The notes under the pieces: generated by a model | The model's database searches: none | Told to the model about the DNA's origin: nothing | The model's input: the letters and a program-made list of their open reading frames with translations, nothing else | Made by a program: the position numbers and the translations under genes | NCBI RefSeq assembly: GCF_009687865.1 | Contig: NZ_BLAE01000018.1 | Span: 101,895-142,358 of the forward strand | Length of the DNA: 40,464 bases | Direction: 5' to 3' | Source: Acrocarpospora macrocephala | GTDB lineage: Bacteria; Actinomycetota; Actinomycetes; Streptosporangiales; Streptosporangiaceae | In this document: positions 5,182 to 35,290 of the stretch, one piece after another | How positions within the stretch are numbered: the first letter of the stretch is position 1 | How the letters are laid out: every line of letters begins with the position of its first letter

Positions 5182-5243
5182 ACCATTTTCCTCTCCGAGG
5201 GGCGGTCGCCGGGTCGCCTCTGCCAGCCTGGGGGCGGGAACCG

Positions 5244-5358: not shown

Positions 5359-5388
5359 TGGACCGCGCCCCACCAGCCCCAGTAGGCT
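5359..5388 (+). promoter_or_regulatory. Putative promoter of secreted paralog 1
   Basis: TGGACC, an 18-bp spacer and TAGGCT form a plausible sigma-70-type pair about 55 bp upstream of the start codon. The spacer and -10 region (CCCACCAGCCCCAGTAGGCT) are almost identical to the block upstream of paralog 2 (6629-6648). This conservation between duplicated genes is the main evidence for function. Confidence 0.5.
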
Positions 5389-5441
5389 CACGTGCTCAAA
5401 CCCGAACTTTTCCCTCAAAATTACCTAAGTTAGGGGAATCC

Positions 5442-15055: not shown

Positions 15056-16528
15056 ATGACGGGGCGGACAGCGGGACGGCGCCCACTGATCGCGCACAAT
15101 GACTACTCGCCGCTGACGCCCCCGGTGCTGGGGCAGTGGGAACCGGCGACCTCGGTCAGCGTGATCGTTCCGGCGCACGGCGGGCAGCACCGTCTCGATC
15201 TCACCCTGGCCTCGCTCGTGGCGCAGAGCTACCCGGCGGACCTCACCGAGGTCGTCGTCGTGGACGACGGCAGCGATCCGCCGCTGGGGCTGCCCGAGAT
15301 CCGGCCCCAGAACACCCGCCTGGTCCGCGCCGACGGCGACGGCTGGGGGCCCGCGCACGCGGTGAACGTCGGCGCCGCCGCCTCGGAGGGCACGGTCATC
15401 CAGCGGCTGGACGCGGACATGATCCTCTACCGCGAGCACCTCGAGGCGCTCATGCGCTGGCACCACCTGACCGACTACCTGGTCACCATCGGCTCCAAGC
15501 AGTTCGTCGAGGACTCGGGGGGCGCCCCCGCGGCCGTGCGTGACGCGGTGGCGCAGGACCGGGTGGAGGAGCTCTTCGACCTGTCCCACGCGGTGCCGAG
15601 CTCGACCGAGCGCACGATCCAGCGCCTGGACGGCCTGCGGCGCAGCAAGAACCCCTACCACGTGTGCACCGGGCCCACCCTGTCGTTGCACCGCCGGCTC
15701 TTCCAGGACGCCGGGGGGTTCGACCCGGAGGTGATCCGGGGCGAGGACACCGAGTTCGCCTACCGGCTGGCCCAGGCCGGTTCGGTGTTCGTGCCCGACC
15801 CGGAGGCCAGGGCGGTCCACCTCGGGCTGCCCTCCCAGCGGCGCAACCGGTCGGCGACCGTGCGGGCGGTCGAGCCGTTCCTGGCCCATCGCATCCCGCT
15901 CCGCCGCGACCTGCGCAAGGAGCGCTCCAGGCAGTGGCTGGTGCCCTACGTCGAGGTGGTCCTGAACGTCGAGCACGTGGCCGAGCGGGACGGCCGCAGG
16001 GCGGTGGACGCCGCGCTCAGCGGAACGCTCCCCGACGTCTCGGTCACCCTGGTCGCGCCCTGGTCCAAGCTGCCCCTGGGGCGGCACGGCGTGCTCAGCG
16101 ATTCCGGGTTCGAGCTGCGGATGTTGCGCGAGGGCTTCGCGCACGACCCGCGCGTCCGGCTCACCGAGGAGATCCCGCCGAGCGCGGCGCCGATCCCGTT
16201 CCGGTATGTCGGCCCGGTGGACCTGCCGCTCGAACCGACCTCGCTGGAACGCATGACCAAGCGGATGACTGAGGACGGTCTCGGCCTGCTGGTGGTCACC
16301 CTGCCGGACGGCAGGACCGCCAGGATGGAGCGGACCGAGGCGGTGAGCCGGGCCCTGCTGCTGGCCGATCCGGCGTCCTCACCGGCCCAGGTGATCGCCC
16401 AGACCCATGGCGTACGGCACAGCGAGGCCAAGACCTTCTGGGCGGGCGAGCTGCCTGCCCTGCCGCCGGCGCCACAGCCGGAGCCACCGTTGCGGGTCCG
16501 CATCTTCCGCCGGCCTTCCCCGCGATGA
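15056..16528 (+). CDS. Family 2 glycosyltransferase
   Basis: A 490-residue soluble GT-A glycosyltransferase that would transfer a sugar from a nucleotide-sugar donor. Visible features are SVIVPAHGG near residue 35, the first acidic cluster VVVVDDGSD at ~67-74, and the metal-binding IQRLDADMI with D119/D121. The acceptor-side [11 protein letters not shown] lies near residue 230. The C-terminal ~200 residues look like a second, unassigned domain. No membrane spans are seen. It is divergent from thrC and ends eight bases before the convergent deacetylase, opening the glycan island. The acceptor and sugar cannot be read from the sequence. Confidence 0.87.
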
Positions 16529-16536: not shown

Positions 16537-17370
16537 TCAGCCCTTGGTGGTGATCAGCGTGGCGCCTTCCTCGCGCTCAGCCATCAGGTCCGACACGGTG
16601 ACGAACTCGTAGCCCTTCGCCCGGAGCTGCCGGATGATCGGCCCGAGCCGGCGCAGGAAGACCGGTTCGTAGGTGTTGACCGCGTCATGGGCGAGAAAGA
16701 TCGTTCCTGGGGTGACGTTGTCCACCACGTACGGGATGACCGAATCCGGGTCCTTCTGGAAACTCGCTTCGACGACGCCCTGCGACCACAGGACGACCCG
16801 GTATCCCAGCCCGTCGGCGACCCGCATCGGAACCGCGCCGAGGTGGCCGAACGGCGGCCGGAGCAGCCGCACCTCCCGGCCGGTGATCTTGGCGATGGCT
16901 TCGTGCGCTTGGGTGAGGTCGGTCCGGACGGCCTCGTAGTCGCCGAGGTCGTTGAGGCTCTTGTGCAGCCAGCTGTGGTTGCCGATCTCGTGCCGGTCGA
17001 TCCTGCCGTCCAGGATCTTGGGATTCCTGGTCAGCGTCCGGCCGACGAGGAAGAACGTGGCGGGCACCTTCTCCTCGTCCAGGGCGTCCAGGACCAGCGG
17101 CGTGTAGTTCGGCACCGGGCCGTCGTCGAAGGTCAGCGCGATGAGCTTCTTCCTGGTCTCGACCGCCCAGGTGATCATCCCGTGGCCGCGGGCCCGGTCC
17201 GACGGCTTGGCCGTCGCGAGGGCGGGGGCGGGCTTCTCCGTGCGCGCGGCGGAGTCTCCGGAGCGCAGGTACCGGTCCGCGGCGACCCCGGCCGCCGCTC
17301 CCCCGGCGAGGACGGCCGACAGCCCGCCAATCGTCTTCAGCGCTTTGCGCCGGTCAACTGGCGATTCCAT
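16537..17370 (-). CDS. Exported polysaccharide deacetylase (NodB/CE4)
   Basis: A 277-residue exported CE4 enzyme that removes N- or O-acetyl groups from a polysaccharide or peptidoglycan. The N-terminus has a twin-arginine-like DRRKALK followed by a hydrophobic Gly/Ala stretch, suggesting Tat export or a membrane anchor. Catalytic motifs: LTFDDGP (D82, D83), the metal-binding HEIGNHSWLH (H132 and H136), RPPFGHLG (R171), and a late IFLAHDAV. The ATG at 17370 follows GAGG. It sits inside the glycosyltransferase island on the opposite strand, so it is a likely modifier of the same surface polymer. Confidence 0.9.
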   Translation of the reverse strand: MESPVDRRKALKTIGGLSAVLAGGAAAGVAADRYLRSGDSAARTEKPAPALATAKPSDRARGHGMITWAVETRKKLIALTFDDGPVPNYTPLVLDALDEEKVPATFFLVGRTLTRNPKILDGRIDRHEIGNHSWLHKSLNDLGDYEAVRTDLTQAHEAIAKITGREVRLLRPPFGHLGAVPMRVADGLGYRVVLWSQGVVEASFQKDPDSVIPYVVDNVTPGTIFLAHDAVNTYEPVFLRRLGPIIRQLRAKGYEFVTVSDLMAEREEGATLITTKG

Positions 17371-17590: not shown

Positions 17591-19921
17591 GTGAACAACG
17601 ATTCCGTAAACGAGGCCTACCACGGGCGTGGAGTCGATCAGGCCACGCAGTCACTGACGCGTAACCGGATCAACTGGGTTCTGGACCACCTGCCGGCTGG
17701 GCGCATCATCGACGTGGGCTGCTCGCAGGGCACCGTGCCACTGCTCGCCGCGCAACGCGGCGACGAGGTGCTCGGCCTGGACCTCGACGAGACCGCGATC
17801 ACGTACGCGACCGCCCGCCGTGCCGAGTTGCCCGTGGACGTGGCCCGGCGGCTGGACTTCCAGGTCGGCGACGGCCAGACCCTCACCGGCGTGGCCGACC
17901 AGTCCTTCGACGCCGCCGCGGCGACCGAGGTGCTGACCCAGGTGAGCGACCCAGGCGCGCTGCTGACCCAGCTGTTCCGCGTGCTCAAGCCCGGCGGGAC
18001 GCTGGTGGTGACCGTGCCGTACGGCATGCTGGACCAGCAGGACCACCACCGCACCTTCTACCGGGCCGCGCTGCGCCGGTTGCTCGAGCCGCTCTTCGAG
18101 ATCCACGAGCTGACGGTCCTGGAGCGGCACGTGGCCGCCGTGGGCAGCAGGAGGGCCGAGCCACTCGGGGAGCCGCGCTATGCGCTCGACTCCGAGGAGC
18201 GGGCGTTCCTGGCCCGCGAGCGGCAGCTGACCGAGGACCTGCACGGCACCCGGGCGAAGCTGGACTCGGCGAACGCCGCCTACCGGCGCGCGACCGGCCA
18301 GAACGACGACTTCAAGCAACGCCTGGCCGAGAGCACCGCCGCGGCGAGGGAGCTGCGGGTCAAGCTCGACGCCGCGAACGCCGCCTACCGCGCGGCCACC
18401 CAGCGGGCCGGTGAGACCCGGGCGACGATGACGGCCAGCCTGGAGAGCGAGCGGGAGCAGGTCACCGAGCTGCGTGCCGAGTTGAGGCTGATGCGGATTG
18501 AGGCCACCCGGCTCAAACAGCAGATCCAGACCCTGCGCCGGACAATTCAGGACCATCGCGCGCAGATCGAGCGGATCCGCAAATCGAGGGCGTGGCGGCT
18601 GATCACGGGGTATCGCCGGATTCTTCATCCACGCGAGCGGGCCAAGGTCCTGTCCGCCCCCGCGCCTCGCCAGGAAACGCCTCGCCCGGAAACGCCGCCG
18701 AACGCCGAGGTCGCGCCCAACCCCGCGCCCAACCCCGTCAAGGCGCCGGTGGCCAAGCCCGCCGAAGCCGTGGCCGTCCCGATGGAGGTCGTGGAGGCCC
18801 AGTTCCGGGAGTGGCTGGACGCCGCCAGAGCCGCGGACGGCGATGAGGTGATCCTGATGTTCTCCGGGACGACGTTCGTCCAGGAACACCGGGGGAACCG
18901 GCCGATCCGGCTGACCAACGTCTACCTGAAGCGGCACTGCCCGGTCTTCTTCAACTACTACCGCTGGCACGCCACCGACCCGCTGCCGGAGCACCCGGAC
19001 GTGCTGCTGTTCCAGAGCCCGATCGACATCACGCCGAGCCTGCTCGACGAGCTGCTCCGCGCCGACTTCGGCGGCAAGCGGAAGCTGCTGTTCGCCTCCT
19101 TCCCGCACGACCTCATGGTCCGCAACCTGGTGACGGCGGCCCAGCACGGCTGGGTCACCATCTACGACGCGCGTGACGACTGGGAGGAGTTCGCCAAGGT
19201 CGGGATGGCGAAGTGGTACCACCCGGGGCACGAGCGCTACATCGCCGCCCACGCCGACATCGTCACCGCCGTCTCCCGCCCGCTGGCCAGGAAGATGTCG
19301 GCCATCGCGGCCTCGCGCGAGGTGCATGTGGTGGCGAACGCGCTGGACACCGCCTTTCCCGAGCCGCCACGGCCGCGCCGGCCTGCGGACCGGCCGGTGA
19401 TCGGCTACTTCGGCCACCTGACCGACAAGTGGTTCGACTGGCAGCTGATCATCGACACCGCCGAGCGCTACCCGGACTACGTGCTGGAACTGGCCGGGCA
19501 CCAGGAGCCCAAGCTGAACCTGCCCGCCAACGTCCGGCTGCTCGGCATGGTGGGTCACCAGGAGCTGGCCGAGCGCAGCCTGACCTGGGGCCTGGCGGTG
19601 ATCCCCTTCAAGAACGGCCCGCTGGCCGACGCGGTCGACCCGATCAAGGTGTACGAGTACCTGCACCTCGGGCTGCCGGTCCTGGCCACCTACTTCCCGC
19701 AGTGCCGCGACTACCCCGGCGTGACCGTGACGGAGTCCGCCGAGGAGTTCCTGGCCCTCGTGCCGCGCCTGCTGGGCACCGAACCGGACACCGAGCGGAT
19801 CGCCCGGTGGCTCCAGGACAACACCTGGGAACGCCGGGTGGAAACCTACTCCCGGCTCTCCCACCACACCGAGGCCAAGGGCCGTACCGGGCTCATGGCG
19901 CTACTGGACGGGACACGATGA
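17591..19921 (+). CDS. SAM methyltransferase / coiled-coil / glycosyltransferase fusion
   Basis: A 776-residue multidomain protein. Residues ~1-200 form a class I SAM methyltransferase (IIDVGCSQGTVPLLAA at 39-54). Residues ~208-345 are a long coiled coil with an internally repeated unit (KLDxANAAYRxAT twice), ending in SRAWRLITGYRRI. A Pro/Ala linker leads to a GT-B-type glycosyltransferase (about 400-776) with VIGYFGHLTDKWFDW, LAGHQEP and VYEYLHLGLPVLATYFPQC. The GTG start follows AGAGG. Its stop overlaps the next gene by ATGA, so translation is coupled. Such fusions are typical of cell-surface glycan assembly, where the methyl group may cap a chain; this last point is inference. Confidence 0.85.
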   Translation: MNNDSVNEAYHGRGVDQATQSLTRNRINWVLDHLPAGRIIDVGCSQGTVPLLAAQRGDEVLGLDLDETAITYATARRAELPVDVARRLDFQVGDGQTLTGVADQSFDAAAATEVLTQVSDPGALLTQLFRVLKPGGTLVVTVPYGMLDQQDHHRTFYRAALRRLLEPLFEIHELTVLERHVAAVGSRRAEPLGEPRYALDSEERAFLARERQLTEDLHGTRAKLDSANAAYRRATGQNDDFKQRLAESTAAARELRVKLDAANAAYRAATQRAGETRATMTASLESEREQVTELRAELRLMRIEATRLKQQIQTLRRTIQDHRAQIERIRKSRAWRLITGYRRILHPRERAKVLSAPAPRQETPRPETPPNAEVAPNPAPNPVKAPVAKPAEAVAVPMEVVEAQFREWLDAARAADGDEVILMFSGTTFVQEHRGNRPIRLTNVYLKRHCPVFFNYYRWHATDPLPEHPDVLLFQSPIDITPSLLDELLRADFGGKRKLLFASFPHDLMVRNLVTAAQHGWVTIYDARDDWEEFAKVGMAKWYHPGHERYIAAHADIVTAVSRPLARKMSAIAASREVHVVANALDTAFPEPPRPRRPADRPVIGYFGHLTDKWFDWQLIIDTAERYPDYVLELAGHQEPKLNLPANVRLLGMVGHQELAERSLTWGLAVIPFKNGPLADAVDPIKVYEYLHLGLPVLATYFPQCRDYPGVTVTESAEEFLALVPRLLGTEPDTERIARWLQDNTWERRVETYSRLSHHTEAKGRTGLMALLDGTR

Positions 19922-20976
19922 GCAGGCCACGGATTGTCTTCTGTTACCGGTACGGCGTGCTCGGCGGTGTCTCCACCCAACTGCTCAACCGCTACCCGCA
20001 CCTGTCCGACGAGTACGACGTGACCGTCCTCTACGAGGCCGACCACGGGATGGCGGGCAACTTCCCGCCCGGCGTGGTGCGGATGACGCCCAGCGCGGAC
20101 GACCGCGTCCAGGCCATCCGCGAGCTGCGCCCCGACATCGTGGTGGTCATCGACAGCCCGCGCTTCATCGCCGCCTGGCAGGAGGCGGGCGAGCCGGGCC
20201 GCCTGGTGCTTGAGGTGCACACCACCACGCCCAACCTCGCCTACCTGCGCGACCAGGGCCAGTTCAACGGGCTCACCCACATCGTCACGGTGAGCGAGTA
20301 CATGGAGCGCATGCTGCGGGACCAGGGTCTCGGCGACGTGGCGCCCATCTCGATCGTGCCCAACTGCCTGGACGACGACTGGCGGGCCGACGCCAACCCG
20401 CCGCAGCTCAACGAGGCGCCCATCGCCTGGGTCGGCAAGCTCGACGGGCACAAGCGGTGGCGGACGGCGACCGACATCATGGACACGGTCTGCCAGAGCG
20501 TGGGCCTGGACGTGGTGCCGCTCATCATCGGCGGCTACACCGCGCCGGCCCATCAGGTGCAGGCGCTCACCACCAAGCTGGCCACCTTTCCCTCGCTGTC
20601 GCGCGGCCAGTGGTGGCCCCGGCTGGAGTACCGGAACATGCCCGCGGTCTACTCCACGATCGGGTTCAACGGCGGCGTGCTGCTCTCCACCACCACCAAC
20701 GAGTCGTTCGGCATGTCGGTGGCCGAGGCCCTCATCCGCGGCTGCCCGGTGATCGCCCCGGCGGTGGGCGCCCTGCCGGAGATCCTCCCCGCCGAGGCGA
20801 TGTACGCCCAGGGCGACTGGGACGCCGCCGCCGCGCTCACCCGCCAGGCCCTGCTGGACTCCGACTTCCGCACCCGGCTGCTGTCCACCGTTCCCCAGGT
20901 GGCGGAGCTGACCCGCCCGGTGAACGCGCTGGCCGCCTACCAGAAGATGATCAACGCCACGCTCGAAAAGATCTAA
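19918..20976 (+). CDS. Family 4-like glycosyltransferase
   Basis: A 352-residue GT-B glycosyltransferase. The N-terminal domain has the acceptor-loop motif YGVLGGVSTQLLNRYP. The C-terminal donor domain has APIAWVGKLDGHKRW, the E-x7-E-like stretch ESFGMSVAEALIRGCPVIAP, and GALPEILP. The start codon overlaps the preceding stop (ATGA), and the following membrane protein begins nine bases downstream, forming a three-gene operon with the fusion protein. Sugar specificity is unknown. Confidence 0.87.
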   Translation: MSRPRIVFCYRYGVLGGVSTQLLNRYPHLSDEYDVTVLYEADHGMAGNFPPGVVRMTPSADDRVQAIRELRPDIVVVIDSPRFIAAWQEAGEPGRLVLEVHTTTPNLAYLRDQGQFNGLTHIVTVSEYMERMLRDQGLGDVAPISIVPNCLDDDWRADANPPQLNEAPIAWVGKLDGHKRWRTATDIMDTVCQSVGLDVVPLIIGGYTAPAHQVQALTTKLATFPSLSRGQWWPRLEYRNMPAVYSTIGFNGGVLLSTTTNESFGMSVAEALIRGCPVIAPAVGALPEILPAEAMYAQGDWDAAAALTRQALLDSDFRTRLLSTVPQVAELTRPVNALAAYQKMINATLEKI

Positions 20977-20984
20977 AGCCTCCG

Positions 20985-22403
20985 ATGGCGCGGCACGTCC
21001 GGGACAACCCGCTGTTCGTCGTGCTGCTGGCCGGTGGCGCGGCGCTGCGCCTCGTCACCATGCTGGGGTTCCGGCCGGCCCTCTGGTTCGGCGGCGACAC
21101 CGACGTCTACGTCCGCGCCGCCGCCGACCTGGAGCCGCTCGCCTCCCGGCCGGTCGGCTACTCCTTCCTGCTCAGGATGCTGATGCCGGGGCACTCCTTC
21201 ACGCTCGTGGTGGCGGTGCAGCACCTGCTGGGGCTCGGCGTGGCCGTCCTGGTCTACCTGCTGCTCCGCCGCGCCGGTGTGCTCAAGTCCCTGGCCGCCC
21301 TGCTCACCACGCCGCTGCTCTTCGACGCCTACCAGGTGCAGCTGGAGCATCTGATCATGTCGGACACGCTGTTCGGCTTCCTGGTGGTCGCGGCGGTCGC
21401 GATGCTCCTGTGGCGGCCGGTGCCCACCCCGGCGCTGGCCGCCGCCGCGTGCCTGACGCTCTCCCTGGCCGCGGTGACCCGGACGGTGGGCCTGCCCCTG
21501 CTCGGCCTCGCCGTCGCCTACCTGCTGGTACGGCGGGCCGGGTGGCGAGGTCTCGCCTGTGGCCTGCTGGCGGCGGCGGTGCCGCTCGTCGCGTACGCCA
21601 CCTGGTTCCATGCCGCGCACGGGCAGTTCGCGCTCAGCCGGGCCGACGGCGTCTTCCTCTGGTCGCGCACGATGACCTTCGCCGACTGTTCGGTCCTGAA
21701 GCCGCCGCCGGAGGAGGCGGTGCTCTGCCCGGAGAACGTGCCACCGGAGATCCGCGCCGAGCGGCCCGCAGCCTCGCGGTGGATCTGGAACGAGTGGTCG
21801 CCCATCCAGCGAGCGCCGGGGGACCTGTTCAGCGTGCAGACCAACGACGTGGGCCGCAGGTTCGCGCTGCGGGCGATCTTCGGGCAGCCGCTGGACTATG
21901 CGGGGGCGGTGGCGCGGGACACGGCGCGGGCGTTCTCCTGGGTGCGGCAGCCGCATCCCGGCACGTACACGGTCGGCTTCTACGAGTTCGACCTGGCCGA
22001 CCTGCCGCTGCCGACCGAGCACTCCGCCGGGAGCGTGACCGTGGCCGAGATCGCTCGGATCTACGCCCCGATGCCGGGAACCGACAGCGTGCCGCCGTAC
22101 TCCTCCCTGATCCGGAAATATCAGGACTACGTCTTTCTGCGCGGGCCGATCCTTGCCCTGCTTCTCCTGGCGGGGCTGGCCGGAGTCCTGGTCAGGCGGC
22201 GGGCCGTGATCCTCTTCCCGTGGCTGGTCGGGGTGGCGCTGCTGGTCGCGCCGCCCATGCTCGCCGACTTCGACCATCGGTACGTGCTGCCCGCAGTGCC
22301 GCTGCTCTGCCTGGCGGCGGGGCTGGCGGCCGTGCGACGGTCAGATCATGACGTGGTCGTCGGGGGGCCCGTAGAAGGAGAGCGCCGCGTCCTGCCGGTC
22401 TAG
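20985..22403 (+). CDS. Polytopic membrane protein, GT-C glycosyltransferase-like
   Basis: A 472-residue protein with about nine to ten hydrophobic segments. The first extracytoplasmic loop has the acidic GGDTDVYVRAAADLEP, and RPVGYSFLLRML follows. This layout is typical of GT-C enzymes that use polyprenyl-phosphate sugars on the outer face of the membrane. A long soluble segment (~residues 225-370) with two cysteines (FADCSVL, VLCPEN) precedes the last membrane spans. It is the third gene of the operon (nine bases after the GT4). Its last 63 bases overlap the 3' end of the convergent CgeB-like gene. Confidence 0.7.
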   Translation: MARHVRDNPLFVVLLAGGAALRLVTMLGFRPALWFGGDTDVYVRAAADLEPLASRPVGYSFLLRMLMPGHSFTLVVAVQHLLGLGVAVLVYLLLRRAGVLKSLAALLTTPLLFDAYQVQLEHLIMSDTLFGFLVVAAVAMLLWRPVPTPALAAAACLTLSLAAVTRTVGLPLLGLAVAYLLVRRAGWRGLACGLLAAAVPLVAYATWFHAAHGQFALSRADGVFLWSRTMTFADCSVLKPPPEEAVLCPENVPPEIRAERPAASRWIWNEWSPIQRAPGDLFSVQTNDVGRRFALRAIFGQPLDYAGAVARDTARAFSWVRQPHPGTYTVGFYEFDLADLPLPTEHSAGSVTVAEIARIYAPMPGTDSVPPYSSLIRKYQDYVFLRGPILALLLLAGLAGVLVRRRAVILFPWLVGVALLVAPPMLADFDHRYVLPAVPLLCLAAGLAAVRRSDHDVVVGGPVEGERRVLPV

Positions 22404-24275
22404 GCCCCAGGCCGAGCCGAGGTCGTCGATCTCGACGAAGCCGAACCTGTCGGCGGCGTAGATCCGGATTCCGGCCTGCGCGCAGTCGGCGAAAAGGTCC
22501 TCTCCCCCGGCGGGCAGGTCGCGGAGCGCCTGGGTGCTCACGAGCATCGCGGCCGGGTTGAGATCGCTGACGTACCGGTGTTCGTCGGCGGGGTTGACGA
22601 TCAGGTTGGCGGCGCTGGGGGTGTGGTGGGTGTAATACGCCCGTTTGCCGACGATCCCGGCCTCGGTGTAGTCGAAGGCCATGAGCAGGTCGGCCAGGAA
22701 GTGCCTGCCGTACCTGGCGGTGGGTGCGAAAGGGGCCATGTAGTCGCCGACCGCCGCCTCGCGGACCAGCCGAGCGGAATCGGTGGGCCCGGCGGGCAGG
22801 ACGAGGACCTGGTCCACCCCGGCTTGGGCCGCGCGCCGGCCGAGGGCTGCCTCGTCCGGGCCGGAGGCCACCAGCACCAGCCGGGTGGGCCGCAGCGTCT
22901 GGGCCGCCACCGACGCGACGACCCGATCCAGCTGGGCCGGGCCGTCCACGGCCGCCACCACGGTCACCTCCGGCCGCCGCCGCTCAGGCACGTCCCGGCC
23001 CAGCTCGCGCAGCACGGAGTCGATGCGATGCCGGTAGGTGTGCGCGGTCAGCACCTCGCGCATCGCCAGGTGGCCCACCCGGTCCCTCAGCTCGGCGCTG
23101 CGCAGGAGGGTGCGCAGCAGCGCCCGGGTCTCCTCCCTGCCACCGGACATCGGGATCAGCTCGCCGAAGATCTCCCGGATGGCCTTGGCGTACCCGGAGA
23201 CGAGCGGGGTCCCGGTCGCGGACACCTCGAAGACCCGGCGGGCGCACATGGTGGGCGAGTCCACCACCGTGTTCACGTTCAGGATGACCTTGTACAGCTT
23301 CTGCGCGGCCAGCATCTTCTCGTACGGCAGCATGCCGACGATGCTGGGCACGTACTCGGGCGGGAAGTCGTACAGCTTGTCCCCCGGCTCGCGGCGGCTG
23401 TAAATGTGCAGGCCGTGGTCGATGGCCGGGGCGACGACCGCGTCCATCTGCTCCTGCCGCTCGGGGTGGCGCGCGGCGAAGTAGGTGCCCGCGAACACCA
23501 CCTCCAGGCTGCCGTGGCCGTCCACCCTGATCGGGTTGTGGATCCGCGGCTGGGCGCCGAACGGCATCAGCCCGACCCGGTCGTGCCCGAGATCCTCCCG
23601 ATACTGGGCGAGGCACTCCTCGTCCACGGTGAAGACGTGGTCGAACAGCTTCGCGGCCTTGAGGAAGACGTCGTAGTTCGGCGGATCCTCCTTGTTCCAG
23701 AAGACCGTGGGGATGCCCTGCTCCCGGCACCAGGCGACCAGGTCGATCAGGGGCTGCTTCGGCTCGGTCCTGATCAGGAAGCGCCACCGGAAGTCGTTGC
23801 CCCGCCAGGCCGACTCCACGAAGAGCAGGTCGGGCTTCTCCCTGGTCAGGACCTCGCGCCAGTCATCGGGGCCGAAATCCCCGATCTGGGTCCACTCGTA
23901 GGAGAGCGCGAGCGCGGAGAAGGTGTCCAGGATGGTGGCCACCCGCAGGCCCGGACGGTTGACCATCCCGGCCGGGAACTCGATCTCCGGAATATCGGGC
24001 AGCAGGCTCGGCTCGGGCTCCGGCGGGCGCGGCGGCGGGGCCGGGATGCTGATCCGGGTGGGGGGCGCCAGCGGCGGCAGGGGGCGCAACGCCCCGAACA
24101 CCATGCGGGCCGAGTTCCGCAGCTGGCGCTTCCTGGCGGCGCCGCCGGCGGCGGCGAGGCGATACCACCGGCGCCGCCGGGTCGACTCGAGCTGCCACTT
24201 GGCGTAGTCGGCGCGGTAGATCTCGCGTTCCAGCCGACGTCTCAGCTCCGCCGCCTCGTCATCGCCGCCCGGCAT
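22341..24275 (-). CDS. CgeB-like glycosyltransferase with degenerate GT2 domain
   Basis: A 644-residue protein. A charged helical N-terminus (RRRLEREIYRADYAKWQLE) and a Pro-rich linker precede a GT-B fold of the CgeB/Glyco_trans_1_2 type. Visible motifs there are WNKEDPPNYDVFL, FDHVFTVDEECLAQYR, VVFAGTYFAARHPERQ and SPTMCARRVFEVSATGTPLVSGY. The last ~200 residues resemble a GT2 domain (VTVVAAVDGPAQLDRVVASV), but the acidic metal-binding cluster expected after YMAPF is replaced by APTARYG. The second domain is therefore probably not catalytic. The start is uncertain: ATG 24275 is taken, though AAAGG lies 12 bases upstream, and a TTG at 24287 is possible. It is divergent from the first Asn-synthetase-like gene. 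Confidence 0.8.
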   Translation of the reverse strand: MPGGDDEAAELRRRLEREIYRADYAKWQLESTRRRRWYRLAAAGGAARKRQLRNSARMVFGALRPLPPLAPPTRISIPAPPPRPPEPEPSLLPDIPEIEFPAGMVNRPGLRVATILDTFSALALSYEWTQIGDFGPDDWREVLTREKPDLLFVESAWRGNDFRWRFLIRTEPKQPLIDLVAWCREQGIPTVFWNKEDPPNYDVFLKAAKLFDHVFTVDEECLAQYREDLGHDRVGLMPFGAQPRIHNPIRVDGHGSLEVVFAGTYFAARHPERQEQMDAVVAPAIDHGLHIYSRREPGDKLYDFPPEYVPSIVGMLPYEKMLAAQKLYKVILNVNTVVDSPTMCARRVFEVSATGTPLVSGYAKAIREIFGELIPMSGGREETRALLRTLLRSAELRDRVGHLAMREVLTAHTYRHRIDSVLRELGRDVPERRRPEVTVVAAVDGPAQLDRVVASVAAQTLRPTRLVLVASGPDEAALGRRAAQAGVDQVLVLPAGPTDSARLVREAAVGDYMAPFAPTARYGRHFLADLLMAFDYTEAGIVGKRAYYTHHTPSAANLIVNPADEHRYVSDLNPAAMLVSTQALRDLPAGGEDLFADCAQAGIRIYAADRFGFVEIDDLGSAWGLDRQDAALSFYGPPDDHVMI

Positions 24276-24333
24276 GCTGGTGACCAACCTTTCCGCAAAG
24301 CCGCTTCAACAGACCTGAAGGCTATCGAATAAC

Positions 24334-24348
24334 TACAATTGCTCAGTG
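24334..24348 (+). promoter_or_regulatory. Leaderless-type -10 box before ligase 1
   Basis: TACAAT at 24334-24339 lies six bases before the GTG start at 24346, so the transcript would begin at or next to the start codon. No Shine-Dalgarno sequence is present. The same ACTACAAT element occurs before the second ligase. No clear -35 box is seen. Confidence 0.6.
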
Positions 24349-25995
24349 GAGATTTCGTACCGGGCTCGGCCCTTCGTCTGCGGCGCCCTGGGCCGGTGGG
24401 ATGCCGCCGCGCTGTCCCGGTTAGTCGCCGCGGCGCCGGAGGGGCTCACCCGGGCGGTCCGCACACCCCACGCCGAGCTGTGGAGCACCGCCGCCCCCGA
24501 GCGCTGGTCCGCTGCGGGCAGCCGCGGCTTCAGCTGGGCCCCAGGCGCGGCGGGCCGCCGCCCCCGCTCCTGGCCCGACGCCGCCGAGCGCCGGCTGGCC
24601 GCGGGCCTGGTCCTCACCGGCAGGGACGAGGCGCTCCTGCACACCGACGCCCTCGGCCTGCAGGAGCTCTACCTGCGCAGGATCGGTGACGGCCTCTACT
24701 TCGCCTCCCGGATCGACCCCCTGGTCGGGTTGGACGAGCAACGCCTGCACGTGGACTGGAGCGCATGGGCCAACCTGCTGGTCACGGCGGCCCTGGACGA
24801 CCAGACGCCATTCGAGGAGATCCGGCGGGTCCGGCCCGCCACCGCGCACGCGTTCCGGGACGGCAGGCATCAGCCGCTCTCGTTCACGCCCGGCTGGCTG
24901 AACGTGGAGCCCGGGGAGCGGCCCGACCCGGGCGAACTGGTGGACGTGGTCGCCGCCGCCGTTCCGCGCCGCCTGCTGCGCCGGGTCTCGATCTCGCTCA
25001 GCGGCGGCTGGGACTCCCGTTTCCTGGCCATGCTGCTCAAGGGCCGGACCAGGAACCGCTCCCGCGCCCTGTCGACCAGCAACGACGACGGGCTCGAGCA
25101 CGACCTGCGGCTCTCGGAGCAGGTGGCGGCGGCGCTGGGCCTGCCGTACGAGGCGGTGATCCCCGGGCCGGAGGGGTGGCTGGAGGCGCACGCGGAGGTG
25201 CGGCGGCGGCTGGAGTACCAGTCGTGGCAGCACACCTGGCTGTACCCGCTGGCCCAGCTGACCCACCAGCGGGACGACATCATGCTGGACGGCTTCGGCG
25301 GGGACGTGCTGTTCCGGTACAAGGGCTACTACGCCGACATCGACCGGGATCGGGCCCACGGCCGCGACATCATGTGGAGCAAGGTCATCGCGGCCCGGTT
25401 CACCCACGACGGCGTGTACGCGGACGGGGTGCGCGGCGCGGTCACGGAGCTGTCCCGCCCGGCTTTCGACCGGGTGGCGGAACCGCTCCTGGGCCACCAC
25501 GCCTGGCCGGTGTTCGCCCGGATCGGGTTCGCCTCCCGTAGCGTCGGCATGTCGCCGTCCCTGCTGTTCGGGCCGGAGACCGACGTCCGGCTGCCGTTCA
25601 TCCAGCCGGACGTGCTGACGCTGGCCGCGCGGCTGCCACTGGGCGCGCGCGGCGAGAGCGACGATCTTTACCGGACCATGATGTCCCTGGCCAACCCCCA
25701 GGTCGCGACGCTCCCTTCCACCAACGACCCGCAGCCGAAGGTGGATCCGCCGATCCCGCGCCGACAGGCCAGCCCGGCCGCGCTCGCCACGATGGCGCAG
25801 GCGATCAACGCGCGGGACGAGGTGCGACCGTTCTTCGGGTGGTCGCTGCTGCGGGTGCTGGACGATGAGGAGGTCAGGAACCGGCAGGGGGTGTGGAACC
25901 CCACGCTGTACCCGCTGGAGTGGGGAAGCCTGCTGGCCCAATGGCTCGACAGGTACGACTCCCGGCTCGCCCCAACCAAGGCACCGTTTGCGTAA
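24346..25995 (+). CDS. Asparagine-synthetase-like ATP-dependent ligase, paralog 1
   Basis: A 549-residue protein of the AsnB / beta-lactam-synthetase superfamily. The C-terminal domain has the PP-loop SLSGGWDSRFLAML at about residues 217-230, the second metal/phosphate motif MLDGFGGDVLFR, and ETDVRLPFIQPDV (compare AsnB E-x-R-x-PF-D). This chemistry adenylates a carboxylate and attacks it with an amine. The N-terminal domain keeps the Ntn-fold pattern (LLHTDALGLQELYL), but the protein starts VEISYRARPFVCG with no cysteine at position 2, so glutaminase activity is unlikely. It would use free ammonia or an amine, possibly intramolecularly. The adjacent glycosyltransferases suggest amidation of a sugar acid, but this is inference. 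The GTG start aligns exactly with paralog 2. Confidence 0.82.
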   Translation: MEISYRARPFVCGALGRWDAAALSRLVAAAPEGLTRAVRTPHAELWSTAAPERWSAAGSRGFSWAPGAAGRRPRSWPDAAERRLAAGLVLTGRDEALLHTDALGLQELYLRRIGDGLYFASRIDPLVGLDEQRLHVDWSAWANLLVTAALDDQTPFEEIRRVRPATAHAFRDGRHQPLSFTPGWLNVEPGERPDPGELVDVVAAAVPRRLLRRVSISLSGGWDSRFLAMLLKGRTRNRSRALSTSNDDGLEHDLRLSEQVAAALGLPYEAVIPGPEGWLEAHAEVRRRLEYQSWQHTWLYPLAQLTHQRDDIMLDGFGGDVLFRYKGYYADIDRDRAHGRDIMWSKVIAARFTHDGVYADGVRGAVTELSRPAFDRVAEPLLGHHAWPVFARIGFASRSVGMSPSLLFGPETDVRLPFIQPDVLTLAARLPLGARGESDDLYRTMMSLANPQVATLPSTNDPQPKVDPPIPRRQASPAALATMAQAINARDEVRPFFGWSLLRVLDDEEVRNRQGVWNPTLYPLEWGSLLAQWLDRYDSRLAPTKAPFA

Positions 25996-26025
25996 CGAGA
26001 TATGCCTTTATGGATCACCCGTAAC

Positions 26026-26041
26026 TACAATCGCGCCCGTG
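26026..26041 (+). promoter_or_regulatory. Leaderless-type -10 box before ligase 2
   Basis: TACAAT at 26026-26031 lies seven bases before the GTG at 26039, inside the 43-bp gap after ligase 1. It repeats the TAACTACAAT element of ligase 1. No Shine-Dalgarno sequence precedes the start. Confidence 0.6.
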
Positions 26042-27694
26042 CCAATGCAATACCGGGCTCGCCCGTTCGTCTGCGGAGCCATCGGTCCGTGGAACGAGAA
26101 AGTGCTGAATCGCCTGATCGACGCCGCCCCCGGGGGGCTCAGCGCGATTCACCGCGAGCCCAACGCGATCTTATTGTCCTCGGCGAAGCTTGAGCGGTGG
26201 ACGGCAGGATCGGCGCATGGCTACCTCTGGTCTCCGGTGAGCGAAGGCGGCAGGCCCGGCTCGTGGCGGGAGGCCGCCGAGGAGCGCATGGCCGCCGGGC
26301 TGTGCGTGGAGAACGGCGTGCCGGTGCTGCACTCCGACGGTCTCGGCCTCCAGGAGATCTACCTCAGAGCGCACGGCGCGGCCCTGTACTTCTCCGTACG
26401 GATCGATCCGCTGCTGCACCTGGACGACAGCCGATTACACGTTGACTGGGCGGCCTGGGCGGCCCTGCTGATCACGGCGGTGCTCGACGACCAGACCCCG
26501 TTCGAGGAGGTCCGCAGGGCCGAACCAGCCACCGCCTACCGGTACGCGGACGGCAGGACCTCGAAGGTCGGCTTCCTGCCGTCCTGGCTGACCGAACGGA
26601 CCGGCCCCGAGGTCACCCCGAAGGCTCTGGTCGAGACGATCGCCGCCTGCCTTCCCCGCCGCCGCCTGCGCCGGGTCTCGGTCACCCTCAGCGGCGGCTG
26701 GGACTCCCGCCTGCTGGCCGGCCTCAACAGGACCATCACCCGCAACCGCATGCACGCCCTCACCACCAGCAACGACGACGGCGCCGAGCACGACACCGGC
26801 TACGCGACGGAGGTCGCCCGCGCGCTGCGCATCCGCCAGCACACGGTGATCCCCGGCCCCGAGGCCTGGCTGGCCGAACACCATGAGGTCCGCCGGCGCC
26901 TGCAGTACCAGTCCTGGCAGCACACCTGGCTGATGCCGATGGCCAGACTGACCCACCAGCGCAGAGACCTCGTCCTGGACGGCTTCGCCGGGGACGTGCT
27001 GTTCCGCGCCAAGGACTACTACACCGACGTGGCCGCAGCACCGGACCCGGCCGCCGCGCGCCAGATCATGTGGGAACGCGTGGCCTCGGCGCGATTCACC
27101 CACGAGGGCGTCTTCGCGCCGGGAGTGCCGGAATCGGTCACCGAGGCCTCCCGGCCCGCCTTTGACCGAGTCGCGGACGCCCTCGGCGAGCATCACCTGT
27201 GGCCGCTGTTCGCGCGCCTAGGCTTCGGCACCCGCCAGGCTTCCACCTGGCTGTTCGAGCCCGAGACCGACCTGCGGTTCCCATTCGCCCACCCCGACGT
27301 CCTACGGGCAGCTGCCCGGCTACCCCTGACGACCAGAACCACCGGAGACCCGCTCTACCGCTCGATGCTGCGGCACGCCCACGCGACGAGCGCCGCCCTA
27401 CCCTCCACCAACGATCCATGGCCGAAGAAGCCCCTCCAGGCCCGCCGACAGAGCAGCCCGGCCGCGCTGGCCCGGATGACCGAGGCGATCCTGGCACACG
27501 ACAGCGTGGTCACCGCCTTCGGACCCCAGCTCCGCCGGGTACTCACCGACCCGGAGATCCGCAACCGGCAGGGCGTCTGGAACCCCACGCTGTACCCACT
27601 GCAATGGGCCAGCCTGCTCGCCGACTGGCTCACCGCCTACGACTCCCGGCTGGTCCCCAGCCCATGGCCGTACGTCACGAAGGTGAGGGCGTGA
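26039..27694 (+). CDS. Asparagine-synthetase-like ATP-dependent ligase, paralog 2
   Basis: A 551-residue paralog of the preceding protein, colinear throughout: VPMQYRARPFVCGAIG at the N-terminus, TLSGGWDSRLLAGL for the PP-loop, VLDGFAGDVLFR, and ETDLRFPFAHPDV. As in paralog 1, residue 2 is not cysteine. The GG of the second loop is AG here, while the aspartate is kept, so activity is still plausible. The GTG at 26039 is chosen because V-P-M-Q-Y-R aligns with V-E-I-S-Y-R of paralog 1 and lies seven bases after a TACAAT box; an ATG at 26045 is the alternative. Its 3' end overlaps the convergent membrane-protein gene by 20 bp. Confidence 0.82.
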   Translation: MPMQYRARPFVCGAIGPWNEKVLNRLIDAAPGGLSAIHREPNAILLSSAKLERWTAGSAHGYLWSPVSEGGRPGSWREAAEERMAAGLCVENGVPVLHSDGLGLQEIYLRAHGAALYFSVRIDPLLHLDDSRLHVDWAAWAALLITAVLDDQTPFEEVRRAEPATAYRYADGRTSKVGFLPSWLTERTGPEVTPKALVETIAACLPRRRLRRVSVTLSGGWDSRLLAGLNRTITRNRMHALTTSNDDGAEHDTGYATEVARALRIRQHTVIPGPEAWLAEHHEVRRRLQYQSWQHTWLMPMARLTHQRRDLVLDGFAGDVLFRAKDYYTDVAAAPDPAAARQIMWERVASARFTHEGVFAPGVPESVTEASRPAFDRVADALGEHHLWPLFARLGFGTRQASTWLFEPETDLRFPFAHPDVLRAAARLPLTTRTTGDPLYRSMLRHAHATSAALPSTNDPWPKKPLQARRQSSPAALARMTEAILAHDSVVTAFGPQLRRVLTDPEIRNRQGVWNPTLYPLQWASLLADWLTAYDSRLVPSPWPYVTKVRA

Positions 27695-29201
27695 CCTGGT
27701 AGATCTGGAGAACCCCATCCGGAGTCTCGAACGCCGTCCGCCACGTCTCAGGGATCTTGAGCGGCGAGCCGAAGACGCGGGAGGCACGGGTGGGGCACAT
27801 GGAGCAGATGTTCCCGTCCACCGCGTCGTACAACATGACGTAGTCACCCGGCCGGGCCTGCTCCGCCTCGGACAGGAGTTCGATCCGGCTGGTGACGACC
27901 GGCGCGCCGAACGGGCCGTTGCGGTAGACCCGCATCAGCACCTCAACCCCGTTGTCGCCCCAGACCGTGTGCTGCGCGCCAGCCGTCTCCGCCAGCCAGG
28001 TCCTGGCCTGGCTCAGGTGGTGGCCACCGGACTTCGGCCAGGTGGTCCACTCCGTGGCGGCCGTCCAGGTGGCGGCGAACCCGACCGTCCCCGCGACCGC
28101 TCCGGCCAGGTACCTGGCCACCGGCGGCCGGCTGGTGAGGCGGTCGACCGCCCACCGTACGAGCAGCCAGATCGTGCCTAGGCCGCCGAGGACGAAGGCC
28201 GGGAATATCGGGAACCAGTACCGCTCCACCCACAGGTTCACGGTCGGGCTCGCCGGATTCACCAGGCCGCCGAGCAGCGTCAGCGGTACCCACAACAGCG
28301 CGATCCAGCCCAGGAAGAAGCCGAGCTTCCTGGGCCGCACGATGCCTCCCGCGACCGTGACGCCCAGCAGCAGAAGCAGCCAGCGCTTCTCCTCGACCCG
28401 GTTGAGGTGGAAGATCAGCCGGTCCAGGTACTCGGTGACCGGTCGGTTGCGGTAGGTCCGCGCGATGTGCTCCTCCTCGCCCTGGGCCGCGATCGCGGTG
28501 GCGTGGATCCTGGCCAGGGCGTCCCCCCTGACGATCGCCATCAGCAGCATCTCGGCCGCCACCACGCCGATCAGCGGCAGGCCGAGGAAGAGCAGGTCGC
28601 GGAGGCTGACCCGGCGCCACAGCAGCGCCGGGATCAGCGGCCAGAGCAGGACGATGAACTCCCGCACCAGGTAGCTCCAGCCGAGCAGCAGCCCGATCAC
28701 CACCAGCGCCAAGCGGGGACGGCTGAGGTCGCCGCGCCGGATCGCCACCGTCAGCGCCAGCGCGAACAGGGTCAGCGCGGTGGCGAGCAGGTCCGGCAGC
28801 AGATCCCCGCTCTTGTCGAACACGTGGGTGTTGAACGACACCAGCAGCGCGGCGGCGATGCCCACCGTCCGCCCGAAGAACTGGCAGCCCAGCACGTAGG
28901 TTCCGACCAGCAGCAGCAAGCCCGCGAAGAGCGGCACCACGTAGTAGGCCGCCTCGGAGTAGCCGAAGACCTCGATCGCCAGCCGGACCGGCAACACCAG
29001 CCCGTAGCGCAGCCACTGGTGCAGGACCGTGGACTCGCCGACCGCCGGAGCGTACGGGAACTCCTGGGCGGCCAGCAGGTAGGTGAGCTGGTCGGAAGGG
29101 ACGGGCGGCGGCAGCAGGGTCAGCCGCACGGTGGCCCAGCCGATCGCCAGTGCCACACCCAGCGCCCACGTCACAGCTCGCGATTCCCGCACCAATAGCA
29201 C
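27675..29201 (-). CDS. Polytopic membrane protein, GT-C / mannosyltransferase-like
   Basis: A 508-residue protein with roughly ten hydrophobic segments. The first large loop has PSDQLTYLLAAQEFPYAP, where an acidic residue after the first span is typical of GT-C enzymes. FDKSGDLLPDLLATALTLFALAL and GWSYLVREFIVLLWPLIP follow. A soluble C-terminal domain of ~130 residues contains an NICSMCP cysteine pair. It is not closely similar to the other membrane protein of the island. The start is uncertain: the GTG at 29201 lacks a Shine-Dalgarno sequence but has CAGAAT seven bases upstream. It lies 45 bases after the hom stop on the same strand, so read-through from lysA-hom is possible. Confidence 0.72.
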   Translation of the reverse strand: MLLVRESRAVTWALGVALAIGWATVRLTLLPPPVPSDQLTYLLAAQEFPYAPAVGESTVLHQWLRYGLVLPVRLAIEVFGYSEAAYYVVPLFAGLLLLVGTYVLGCQFFGRTVGIAAALLVSFNTHVFDKSGDLLPDLLATALTLFALALTVAIRRGDLSRPRLALVVIGLLLGWSYLVREFIVLLWPLIPALLWRRVSLRDLLFLGLPLIGVVAAEMLLMAIVRGDALARIHATAIAAQGEEEHIARTYRNRPVTEYLDRLIFHLNRVEEKRWLLLLLGVTVAGGIVRPRKLGFFLGWIALLWVPLTLLGGLVNPASPTVNLWVERYWFPIFPAFVLGGLGTIWLLVRWAVDRLTSRPPVARYLAGAVAGTVGFAATWTAATEWTTWPKSGGHHLSQARTWLAETAGAQHTVWGDNGVEVLMRVYRNGPFGAPVVTSRIELLSEAEQARPGDYVMLYDAVDGNICSMCPTRASRVFGSPLKIPETWRTAFETPDGVLQIYQVTPSPS

Positions 29202-29246
29202 CGCGGAGATTCTGGTGCTAACCGCATAAAGTCCGCGTAAGGAACG

Positions 29247-30536
29247 CTACGGCGCCTCGTCGCCCTCTACTCGCATGACGCTGGCGACCGCCCGGACGAT
29301 GTCCAGGTCGCGGAGCCGCTCCACGGTCAGCGACAGTGCCGCGTCGCTGGCCCGGTGCGTGACGAGCACGAGCTGCGCGTCGTCTCCCCGGCCCTCCTGC
29401 CGGACCGTCTGGATCGACACGTCCTGCTGGGCGAACACGTCGGCCACGGTGGCCAGGACGCCCGGCTTGTCGGCCACGTCGAGCGACACGTGATACCGCG
29501 TGACCGTCTCCCCGACCGGATGCACGGCGAGGTCGGCGTACACCGACTCGGACGGCCCGCGGGTGCCGGCCAGACGATTGCGGGCCACCGCGACCAGGTC
29601 GCCCAGCACCGCCGACGCGGTGGGCGCCCCGCCGGCGCCGGCGCCGTAGAACATCAGGCGACCGGCCGACTCCGCCTCCACGAACACCGCGTTGTACGCC
29701 TCCCGCACCCCGGCCAGCGGATGCGACCTCGGGATCATCGCAGGATGCACCCGGACGCCGACCGAGCGGCCGTCGTCGGAGCGGGCGCAGATCGCCAGCA
29801 GTTTGATCACGTAGCCCATCGCCTTGGCCGAGGCGACGTCGGCGGCGGAGATCTCGGTGATGCCCTCGCGGTGCACGTCCGCCGCGGTCACGCGGGTGTG
29901 GAAGGCGATGCCGGCCAGGATGGCGGCCTTGGCGGCGGCGTCGAAGCCCTCGATGTCGGCGGTCGGGTCGGCCTCGGCGTAGCCGAGGGACTGCGCCTCC
30001 TCCAGGGCGTCGGTGAAGGACGCGCCGGTGGAGTCCATCTTGTCGAGGATGTAGTTGGTGGTGCCGTTGACGATGCCGAGCACCCGGTGCACCCGATCCC
30101 CCGCCAGCGACTCGCGCAGCGGCCGGATCAGCGGGATCGCCCCGGCGACCGCGGCCTCGAAGTAGAGGTCGGCCCGGTTGGCGGCGTGCACGGTGGCGCC
30201 GTCCTCGGCCAGCAGCGCCTTGTTGGCGGTGACCACGGACTTGCCGCCCGCCATCGCGGCCAGGATGAGCGACCTGGCCGGTTCGATGCCGCCGATCACC
30301 TCTACCACGATGTCGATGTCGTCGCGGGTGACCAGGGCGTGCGCGTCGGTGGTGAGCAGCGACTCGGGCACTGCCACGTCACGTTTTCGGCCCAGTTTGC
30401 GCACGGCCACCCCGGCCAGCTCCAGCGGCGCGCCCACCCGGGCCGCCAGGTCGTCGGCCTGCTCGGTGAGCAGCCGCACCACCTGGGAGCCGACCACGCC
30501 ACACCCCAGCAGGGCGACCTTCAGCGGTTCGCTCAC
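29247..30536 (-). CDS. hom: Homoserine dehydrogenase
   Basis: A 429-residue enzyme reducing aspartate semialdehyde to homoserine, the branch point to threonine and methionine. The NAD(P)-binding [12 protein letters not shown] is at residues 9-20. The catalytic domain has [14 protein letters not shown] and [19 protein letters not shown]-terminal ACT domain ([19 protein letters not shown]), about residues 350-420, probably mediates threonine feedback. The GTG start overlaps the lysA stop (GTGA) with GAGGGGG upstream, so translation is coupled. thrC, its usual next gene, is 14 kb away. Confidence 0.96.
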
Positions 30537-31915
30537 AACTGCCCCCTCAGCAGGTCTTCCTCGGTCTCGCGCTGGACGATCACGCGGGCCTGGCCGCCGG
30601 ACACCGCGACCACCGCGGGCTTGGGCAGATAGTTGTAGTTGTTGGCGAGCGAGCGGCAGTACGCCCCGGTGCCCGCGACGGCGATCAGGTCGCCGGGGGC
30701 CAGGTCGGCCGGGAGGTAGAGGTCGCGGATGACCATGTCGCCGCTCTCGCAGTGCTTGCCGACCAGGCGGGACAGCATCGGGGCCGCCTCGCTGGATCTG
30801 GAGGCCAGGCGGGCGGTGTATTCGGCGCCGTACAGCGCGGTGCGGATGTTGTCGCTCATGCCGCCGTCGACGCTGACGTAGGTGCGCAGGCCCTCGACGT
30901 CCTTGACCGTGCCCACCTCGTACAGCGTGATTCCGGCCAGGCCGGTGATCGAGCGGCCGGGTTCGACGGTGAGGCGGGGCAGCGGCAGCCCGGCGGAGGC
31001 GCAGACGTGCGCCACGATCTCGCGCAGGCTCTCGGCGATCAGCTTGATGTCGGGGGCGTCGTCGCCGTCCACATACGGGATGCCGTAGCCGCCGCCGAGG
31101 TCGAGTTCGGGCAGCACGACCCCGTGCTCCTGCTTGATCTGGGCGAGCAGGCCGGCCAGCCGCCGGGCGGCCACCTCGAAACCGGCGGTCTCGCTGATCT
31201 GGGAGCCGATGTGCGAGTGCAGGCCGACCAGTTCCAGTGAGGGCAGCGCCAGCACCCGGCGGACCGCCTCGGCCGCCGCGCCGCTGCTCAGCGAGAGGCC
31301 GAACTTCTGGTCGTCGTGGGAGGTGGCGATGAACTCGTGGGTGTGCGCCTCCACACCGACCGTCACCCGGATCATCACCTTGGGGCGCACGCCGTGCTTG
31401 TCGGCCAGGTAGCCGAGGCGGGCGATCTCCTCGAAGGAGTCGGCCACGATGTGCCCGACCCCGGTGACGACGGCACGTTCCAGCTCGGCCACCGACTTGT
31501 TGTTGCCGTGCAGGGTGATGCGCTCGGGCGGGAAGCCGACGCTGAGCGCCACGGCGAGCTCGCCCGCGCTGCACACGTCCAGGCCGAGGCCCTCCTGCAT
31601 GATCCAGCGGGCCACCTCGCGGCACAGGAACGCCTTGCCCGCGTAGTGCACGTCGCCGTCGTGGAAGGAGGCGCGGTAGTCGCGGCAGCGGGACCGGAAG
31701 TCCTCCTCGTCCATCACGAGGAGCGGGCTGCCGTATTCGGCCACCAGGTCGCGGACGTCCACGCCGCCGATCGTGATCGCGCCGTCGATTCGCTCGGACG
31801 TTCGCGGCCAGAGCGCCGGGGTGAGGGCGTTCAGGTCGGCGGGGGCGTGCGGCGGGCGTTCGTCAGGCAGCTGCTCGGCGTGCCTGTCACCGGCCGGATG
31901 GGCGAATCGACTCAC
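30533..31915 (-). CDS. lysA: Diaminopimelate decarboxylase
   Basis: A 460-residue PLP enzyme making L-lysine from meso-diaminopimelate. The alanine-racemase-like barrel has the PLP-lysine motif YAGKAFLC (K94), [19 protein letters not shown] and TVEPGRSI. The C-terminal domain carries the GKHCESGDM active-site cysteine region. It has a longer N-terminal extension than many homologs (about 40 residues). The GTG at 31915 has no strong Shine-Dalgarno sequence, but TAACCT sits seven bases upstream, so a leaderless transcript is possible. It overlaps hom by four bases. Confidence 0.95.
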
Positions 31916-31974
31916 CTGAACGAGGTTATCGGACTCCCCACCCCGGATGAGACGGTTGCCCAGGTGCCGAGACG

Positions 31975-32604: not shown

Positions 32605-32613
32605 CGGAGGACT

Positions 32614-33501: not shown

Positions 33502-33510
33502 GCGGCTACT

Positions 33511-35229: not shown

Positions 35230-35235
35230 GTCATC

Positions 35236-35284
35236 ACTCTACACGACATGCCTACTTGTGAAGTGCTTCAACCAATGTTTTACT
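35236..35284. promoter_or_regulatory. Overlapping divergent leaderless promoters with a dyad
   Basis: For the minus-strand methylase, TAGAGT (35241-35236) lies six bases before its GTG. For the plus-strand phosphatase, TTGTGA (35256-35261), a 17-bp spacer and TTTACT (35279-35284) lie six bases before its ATG. The two promoters share TGAAGTGCTTCA (35259-35270), an inverted repeat TGAAG/CTTCA with a two-base centre, which could be a common operator. Confidence 0.5.
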
Positions 35285-35290
35285 GTGCAT

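Follow-up and report, generated by a model that had tools for sequence, protein, structure and literature searches.

The twin genes and their family

The stretch of DNA analysed here, called the window, covers 40,464 nucleotides of the 12.1-Mb genome of Acrocarpospora macrocephala (contig NZ_BLAE01000018.1, positions 101,895 to 142,358) and carries two tandem genes, twins A and B, for proteins related to the asparagine synthetase AsnB. Both are intact open reading frames (ORFs) of about 550 codons with the GC pattern of coding DNA, and their products are identical at 322 of 550 positions (59%). An earlier note on this DNA had described two neighbouring paralogues lying amid glycosyltransferases, each with an SGGWDS PP-loop, a GD-VLFR motif and a start of the form V-E/P-I/M-x-YRARPF, and all of this is borne out by the two sequences, which share SGGWDS and DG-x-x-GDVLFR. 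The explanation favoured here, tentatively and at somewhat less than even chances, is that the twins belong to a family of AsnB-fold ligases that works with a CgeB-like/GT2 glycosyltransferase and modifies the sugar unit which that partner handles.

The features of the locus are collected in Table 1. The ORF containing twin B spans 25865-27694 (+), in which the GTG at 26039 is the most likely start (MPMQYRARPFVCG). There are 58 bp before twin A and 43 bp between the twins, and twin B overlaps the next gene. The twins differ at 0.29 of nonsynonymous sites (pN) versus 0.46 of synonymous sites (pS), with a dN/dS of approximately 0.5. The 10-mer TAACTACAAT precedes the GTG of each twin and has only these two matches in the window, versus a mean of 0.00 in 100 shuffles. 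Its position 6–7 bp before each GTG is compatible with separate leaderless transcripts for the two genes. A different sequence, TAAC(A/T/G)AATACGTCGTTA, is found upstream of the clade I ligase (see below) in all five Sphaerisporangium loci (L040-L044), ending about 11 bp before the start; it is possibly an operator or promoter element, unlike the TAACTACAAT of the window.

Table 1. Features of the twin locus, in window coordinates
Feature	Position	Strand	Description
GT2 glycosyltransferase	15056..16528	+	490 aa
Polysaccharide deacetylase	16537..17370	-	277 aa
Methyltransferase-domain protein	17591..19921	+	776 aa; methyltransferase domain (67.6 bits), C-terminal part weakly like TuaH
GT4-type glycosyltransferase	19918..20976	+	352 aa
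Hydrophobic protein	20985..22403	+	472 aa; no Pfam match; resembles GT-C membrane glycosyltransferases by eye
Partner glycosyltransferase	22341..24287	-	648 aa; divergent from A; CgeB-like part (PF13524)
Partner glycosyltransferase, C-terminal part			Similar to the GT2-containing half of homologue L006:2520-4574
TAACTACAAT, copy 1	24330..24339	+	-10-like; same 10-mer as copy 2, 6 bp before the GTG of A
Twin ligase A	24346..25995	+	549 aa; GTG start; AsnB-fold PP-loop protein
Twin ligase A, motifs			VCGALG with Cys12; SGGWDSR 219-225; LDGFGGDVLF 314-323
TAACTACAAT, copy 2	26022..26031	+	7 bp before the GTG of B
Twin ligase B	26039..27694	+	551 aa from GTG 26039, or 549 aa from ATG 26045
PMT_2 type membrane glycosyltransferase	27675..29201	-	508 aa; 28.3 bits versus cut-off 26.1; convergent with B

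Six PF00733 loci are present in the A. macrocephala genome: three canonical ones with an MCG start (L120-L122), the two twins, and a third family member approximately 33 kb from twin B. A scan of named genomes supplied the best 80 of 188 relatives (the 80 named loci; comparison loci and genomes are given by L and G numbers). The tree was made from 50 rows, namely 46 aligned members, the third paralogue and three distant rows, and its root and long branches are unsure. Clade I contains the twins and members from Sphaerisporangium, Glycomyces, Actinomadura, Hamadaea and one uncultured member of Thermomonosporaceae; clade II is mainly from Streptosporangiaceae and includes the third paralogue. 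Orthologous loci in the same-genus genome G003 and in Acrocarpospora phusangensis encode an identical protein. When 200 genomes of the host's taxonomic family were sampled, a member was present in 84 (E up to 1e-40). In a sample of 396 genomes from the phylum, matches above 180 bits were found only in the A. macrocephala genome and in G434. The other matches listed do not exceed 61 bits and seem to reflect no more than a general likeness to AsnB; 96 of the 396 genomes have a match at E up to 0.001.

Besides the A. macrocephala genome, six of the 200 have two matches, in each case on different contigs or more than 1 Mb apart, so the adjacent pair occurs in one genome of the 200. The twins are sisters in the tree (support 100/100), and the pair is a local, lineage-specific duplication. 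The suggestion in the earlier note that the two copies install two different amides finds no evidence in these sister duplicates.

The locus has a different history in the sister genome G001. The lysA side of the window, where hom lies inside the minus-strand ORF 29247-31625, continues there at 96.7% identity (window 29150-36169), but of the twin region only two short remnants are left, from twin B and the PMT gene (window 26884-27071 and 27624-27815). These pieces lie on contig 30 (L159 9816-10193) beside hom/lysA, and the rest of the glycan locus was not found in the 20 kb examined at this site. G001 is a single draft assembly with 7% contamination. The tandem pair therefore appears as a decayed relic in the sister species, and the twin locus is accessory because G001 keeps only relics.

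The synthetase site and the cysteine at residue 12

The twins score 35.8 bits (A, E 9.5e-9) and 46.7 bits (B, E 4.7e-12) against PF00733 (Asn_synthase), above its gathering score of 21 bits, and this is the sole Pfam family matched at E up to 0.001. Against the asparagine synthetase model TIGR01536 they reach 56.1 and 53.1 bits, far below its cut-off of 267.1. Profile comparison of twin A with AsnB matched residues 87-546 at 99.6%, the full match starting only at residue 87. Profile matches to PDB entries were to NAD synthetase (7.6e-5), CarA (8.1e-5) and beta-lactam synthetase (BLS; 0.031); phmmer with twin A found no PDB match up to E 1, and PADLOC made no assignment for the twins. The likeness to E. 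coli AsnB is of two kinds, the C-terminal PP-loop synthetase fold and a CG-x-x-G near the N-terminus. The family would be an altered form of an already known fold. A literature search at title and abstract level, with subscription journals mostly outside its reach, found no description of the family or its context, and the twins apparently belong to an undescribed actinobacterial AsnB-fold family.

The PP-loop of the family is of the SGGLDSS type. Residues S219, G220, G221, D223 and S224 are invariant in the 50 rows, and in every row the last Ser of the loop is replaced by Arg. The AsnB sequence LSGEGSDEVFGGY aligns with LDGFGGDVLFRYK in twin A, and the counterpart of AsnB GEGxDE is DG[FLC]xG[DG]. 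In this motif the place of the first Glu is Phe, Cys or Leu in 46/46 aligned members, and the Asp of GxD is kept in all 15 clade I rows and in both distant rows among these 46. The position of the catalytic Lys, in a column that depends on a gapped alignment, is Lys in only 6/46. Family-specific residues are instead present in all 50 rows (Arg225, His296, Trp298, Asp315, Gly316, Gly319, His384 and Trp533) or in 49 (Arg473). Both twins bear the family marks SGG[WY]DSR, TTSxDDG, HxW, DGxxG, His384 and Arg473, the deviations being STS for TTS in twin A and SGGLDSR in the distant row L158. The conclusion suggested by these alignments is an AsnB fold with its own active site or none; the catalytic residues of AsnB and BLS cannot serve here. 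Arg225, His296, Asp315, His384 and Arg473 are the candidate catalytic residues.

BLS and CarA have the AsnB fold without glutaminase activity, and the earlier note had likened the twins to BLS. The analogy fails at the level of residues, because the position of AsnB Glu348, presumably Tyr348 in BLS, is one of the three residues named above in every aligned member and the Lys is rarely kept; no BLS sequence was aligned directly at these places. There is also no lactam context. A comparison with lasso cyclases, which the earlier note had proposed, was run and gave no sign of one. The same fold and the weak similarities to NF033535 and to CarA/BLS would be expected of a peptide cyclase or another enzyme of ribosomally synthesised and post-translationally modified peptides (RiPPs). 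However, the twins reach only 16.2 and 17.9 bits against the lasso cyclase model NF033535 (cut-off 525), the BLS-type residues are absent, and the window proteins scanned by Pfam include no recognisable lasso precursor, RiPP recognition element or protease. Nor is there room for a precursor gene next to the twins, because the gaps are so short and twin B runs into the next gene. A RiPP role is therefore highly improbable.

The earlier note had described the twins as lacking the glutaminase cysteine. Residue 2 is indeed not Cys, but a conserved CG-x-x-G cysteine at residue 12 was missed. Residues 11-16 of the twins read V-C-G-A-L/I-G, within an RP[FY]VCGAxG sequence common to both and to the third paralogue. 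Cys12 is kept in 44 of the 46 aligned members, 46 of the 50 rows and 78 of the 80 named loci. The exceptions are Ser in Nonomuraea solani (L064), Val in Actinopolymorpha alba (L054), and Thr and Leu in the two G434 copies, of which the Thr row is poorly aligned there. The Cys is preceded by 11 residues in both twins and by 9 to 24 in other members, depending on the choice of start.

A permissive local profile alignment with canonical AsnB places V11-C12-G13 on M1-C2-G3; the global alignment places CGA on the NGE region instead. Residues 1-75 alone score 14.3 against AsnB; column shuffles average 10.6, and 3 of the 40 score as high. The outright equation of Cys12 with AsnB Cys2 was dropped on account of these shuffles and of the global alignment. 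The likeness to an MCGIxG start suggests, but does not prove, that the two are equivalent.

It might be that the 11 residues before Cys12 are a propeptide, removed to expose a working N-terminal Cys, which would make the twins glutamine-dependent amidotransferases. The PurF of Bacillus has its N-terminal Cys exposed in this way. Such a reading would account for the near-invariance of Cys12, the presence of Gly13 and Gly16 in 46/46 members, the pairing with Cys2 in the permissive alignments, the Ser of L064, which is still a nucleophile, and the distant member L035, where a possible ATG directly before the Cys would give MCGRMG. Against this, the segment before the Cys is itself conserved as RP[YF][VI] (Arg8 43/46, Pro9 45/46), which is unusual for a discarded propeptide, the Cys is absent from L054 and both G434 copies, and the pairing with Cys2 is not significant. 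The glutamine site argues in the same direction. The glutaminase residues of Lactobacillus casei AsnH are Cys2, Arg48, Asn73, Glu75 and Asp97 (PMC3885529), and nothing in the twins corresponds to the last four. The Arg of HRGPD, NGE and SD-x-E are all without a counterpart in the permissive alignment, where only the Pro of HRGPD remains (Pro31, 44/46), and the distance from Cys12 to LHTD in twin A is about 48 residues shorter than that from Cys2 to GRD in E. coli AsnB. An amidotransferase of this kind is improbable.

Glutamine use by the twins looks lost, because the residues of the glutamine pocket have no recognisable counterpart, and Cys12 is most likely kept for structural reasons or as a remnant, and not as a working glutaminase nucleophile. 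The outcome predicted in the earlier note, AsnB-fold ligases that do not use glutamine, is therefore partly upheld, but not its reason, since the Cys is conserved. The site also offers a ready-made experiment in its natural variants, which have Cys, Ser, Val or Leu.

The partner glycosyltransferase and the surrounding genes

The partner glycosyltransferase divergent from twin A is homologous to the glycosyltransferase divergent from the third paralogue, and it matches the homologue L006:2520-4574 at 33% over 268 aa and 35% over 227 aa. A homologue lies within 6 kb of the ligase in 71 of the 80 named loci and within 0.5 kb in 54. The nine loci without one are four from Glycomyces, three at contig ends (L054, L089 and L117) and two plain misses (L052 and L098). 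As 59 hits from this very set of loci were used to build the glycosyltransferase profile, the figure of 71/80 counts presence and is not a test of significance. Next to Epimerase_2 and UDPG_MGDP_dh genes, the A. macrocephala genome also has a paralogue of the partner at 47% (L171 8093-14462, G000 C84), with matches of 46–47% in 5/5 members of the genus.

Among the other genes of the window, homologues of the 490-aa GT2 protein are found in the vicinity of clade I ligases elsewhere, and the TuaH-like part of the 776-aa protein scores 36.3 bits versus a cut-off of 550. A 434-aa ORF (20973-22277, -) is considered spurious and is not counted as a gene. Methyltransf_24 homologues are present in 10 of 13 named clade I loci and are not found in the window. 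Three of the five named Glycomyces loci (L049, L050 and L051) have a divergent glutamine-synthetase-like (Gln-synt) gene upstream of the clade I ligase, and two of these three have DUF6270 genes downstream.

L035 and L157, both far from the twins in the tree, lie beside ATPgrasp_ST and ATP-grasp/acylphosphatase genes. L157 (3-11702) also has PGA_cap and an ABC-2 exporter, and L035 (1969-18716) has a UDP-sugar dehydrogenase and PGA_cap-like and Wzt-like matches. These two are candidate clusters for peptide- or amide-modified exopolysaccharides. Matches like WecB, Wzm and Wzt are found in L047. The twins might instead act as ATP-dependent ligases on a small molecule of secondary metabolism, as no polymerase, flippase or wall-polymer ligase was recognised in the window and methyltransferases are nearby. 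This is quite unlikely given the exporter or ATPgrasp_ST contexts of L035, L047 and L157, and the position of the clade II pair, which adjoins the housekeeping genes lysA/hom in several genera, unlike a metabolite cluster.

Amide formation on sugar acids is known from other glycan pathways. WbpS and WbqG are AsnB-related uronamide synthases that convert uronic acid to uronamide, and relatives lie near glycosyltransferases and a polysaccharide deacetylase (PMC7468200). Against the WbpS-type model TIGR03108, twin A scores only 15.9 bits versus 816.9, and twin B has no match at E up to 0.01. A further difference is that WbpS and WbqG, we assume, keep the full glutaminase domain. In Campylobacter jejuni Cj1438 a glycosyltransferase is coupled to an amide-forming ligase for a sugar acid; it needs an amidated uronic acid acceptor, and amidation must precede glycosyl transfer (PMC11800379). 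The ligase of Cj1438 is, however, an ATP-grasp enzyme fused to the glycosyltransferase, where that of the twin locus is a PP-loop protein encoded by a separate gene.

Proposed role of the ligase family

The reading preferred here, an AsnB-fold ligase acting with its glycosyltransferase on a shared sugar unit, is based on the retained PP-loop as a site for ATP and pyrophosphate, the nearness of the glycosyltransferase gene in the majority of named loci, and the ATP-grasp and exporter contexts. ATP would adenylate a carboxylate, and the acyl-AMP would be attacked by free ammonia or, more likely, by an amine such as an amino sugar, amino acid or amino alcohol. The amide would form on the sugar unit while the chain is built, probably before the partner transferase acts and as a requirement for it. 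The tandem copy is a local duplication within the accessory locus.

Several points weigh against this reading. Ligase activity is a prediction from sequence, and the substrates and product named above are conjectures. No UDP-sugar dehydrogenase was recognised in the window, and two queried ones matched in only one of 84 loci, L035 itself; uronic acid as substrate stays a guess because this link is so rare. The glycosyltransferase matches in clade I are weak (62–90.5 bits) and may reflect general GT2 similarity. Descent of the N-terminal part from a glutaminase domain is not established, since residues 1-75 do not match that domain clearly better than shuffles do. In the synthetase site, the Asp place of GxD is Gly in 29/29 clade II rows, and the place of the second Glu is never Glu and that of the Tyr never Tyr in the 50 rows. 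Mutants of PesC have been used to test a Glu-Tyr dyad that is common to five AsnB-like enzymes (PMC13060819, a preprint). By spacing, the dyad would be the Glu of DE and the Tyr of GGY. Since this pair is missing and clade II lacks the GxD Asp as well, the family may be inactive or work by a different chemistry.

The twins could accordingly be catalytically dead, as AsnB-fold ATP binders or as scaffolds or regulators of the glycosyltransferase. The loss of both Glu places and the Tyr place throughout, of the Lys in 40/46 and of the GxD Asp in clade II fit this, as does the linkage to the glycosyltransferase. Yet the PP-loop, Arg225, His296, Asp315 and His384 in every row and Arg473 in all but one are kept across very distant members, and the dN/dS of the twins speaks against it also. 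A dead partner is somewhat unlikely.

A bolder form of the ligase reading would make the family a class of sugar amidoligases built on the AsnB fold, with an active site of its own (the five candidate residues), with Cys12 perhaps as an acyl relay or ligand, and with an amide that the CgeB-like/GT2 partner needs for elongating a wall glycan of filamentous actinomycetes. Taken as a whole this is unlikely. Madurose was considered as the product and dropped, the word being absent among the literature matches listed. If the ligase reading holds, a family present in 84 of the 200 sampled genomes modifies a cell-surface glycan without the catalytic residues of its relatives. PP-loop enzymes would then join the ATP-grasp sugar amidoligases, and the family would be a test case for an AsnB fold that changes its nitrogen source and acceptor.

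Two further features were noted elsewhere in the window. An L31-Actinobacteria ribosomal leader (Rfam RF03158, 45.9 bits) is located at 5204-5250 (-). Two tandem ORFs (5358-6542 and 6699-7811, +) are alike by eye and have signal-peptide-like starts and a low first-position GC of approximately 0.5.

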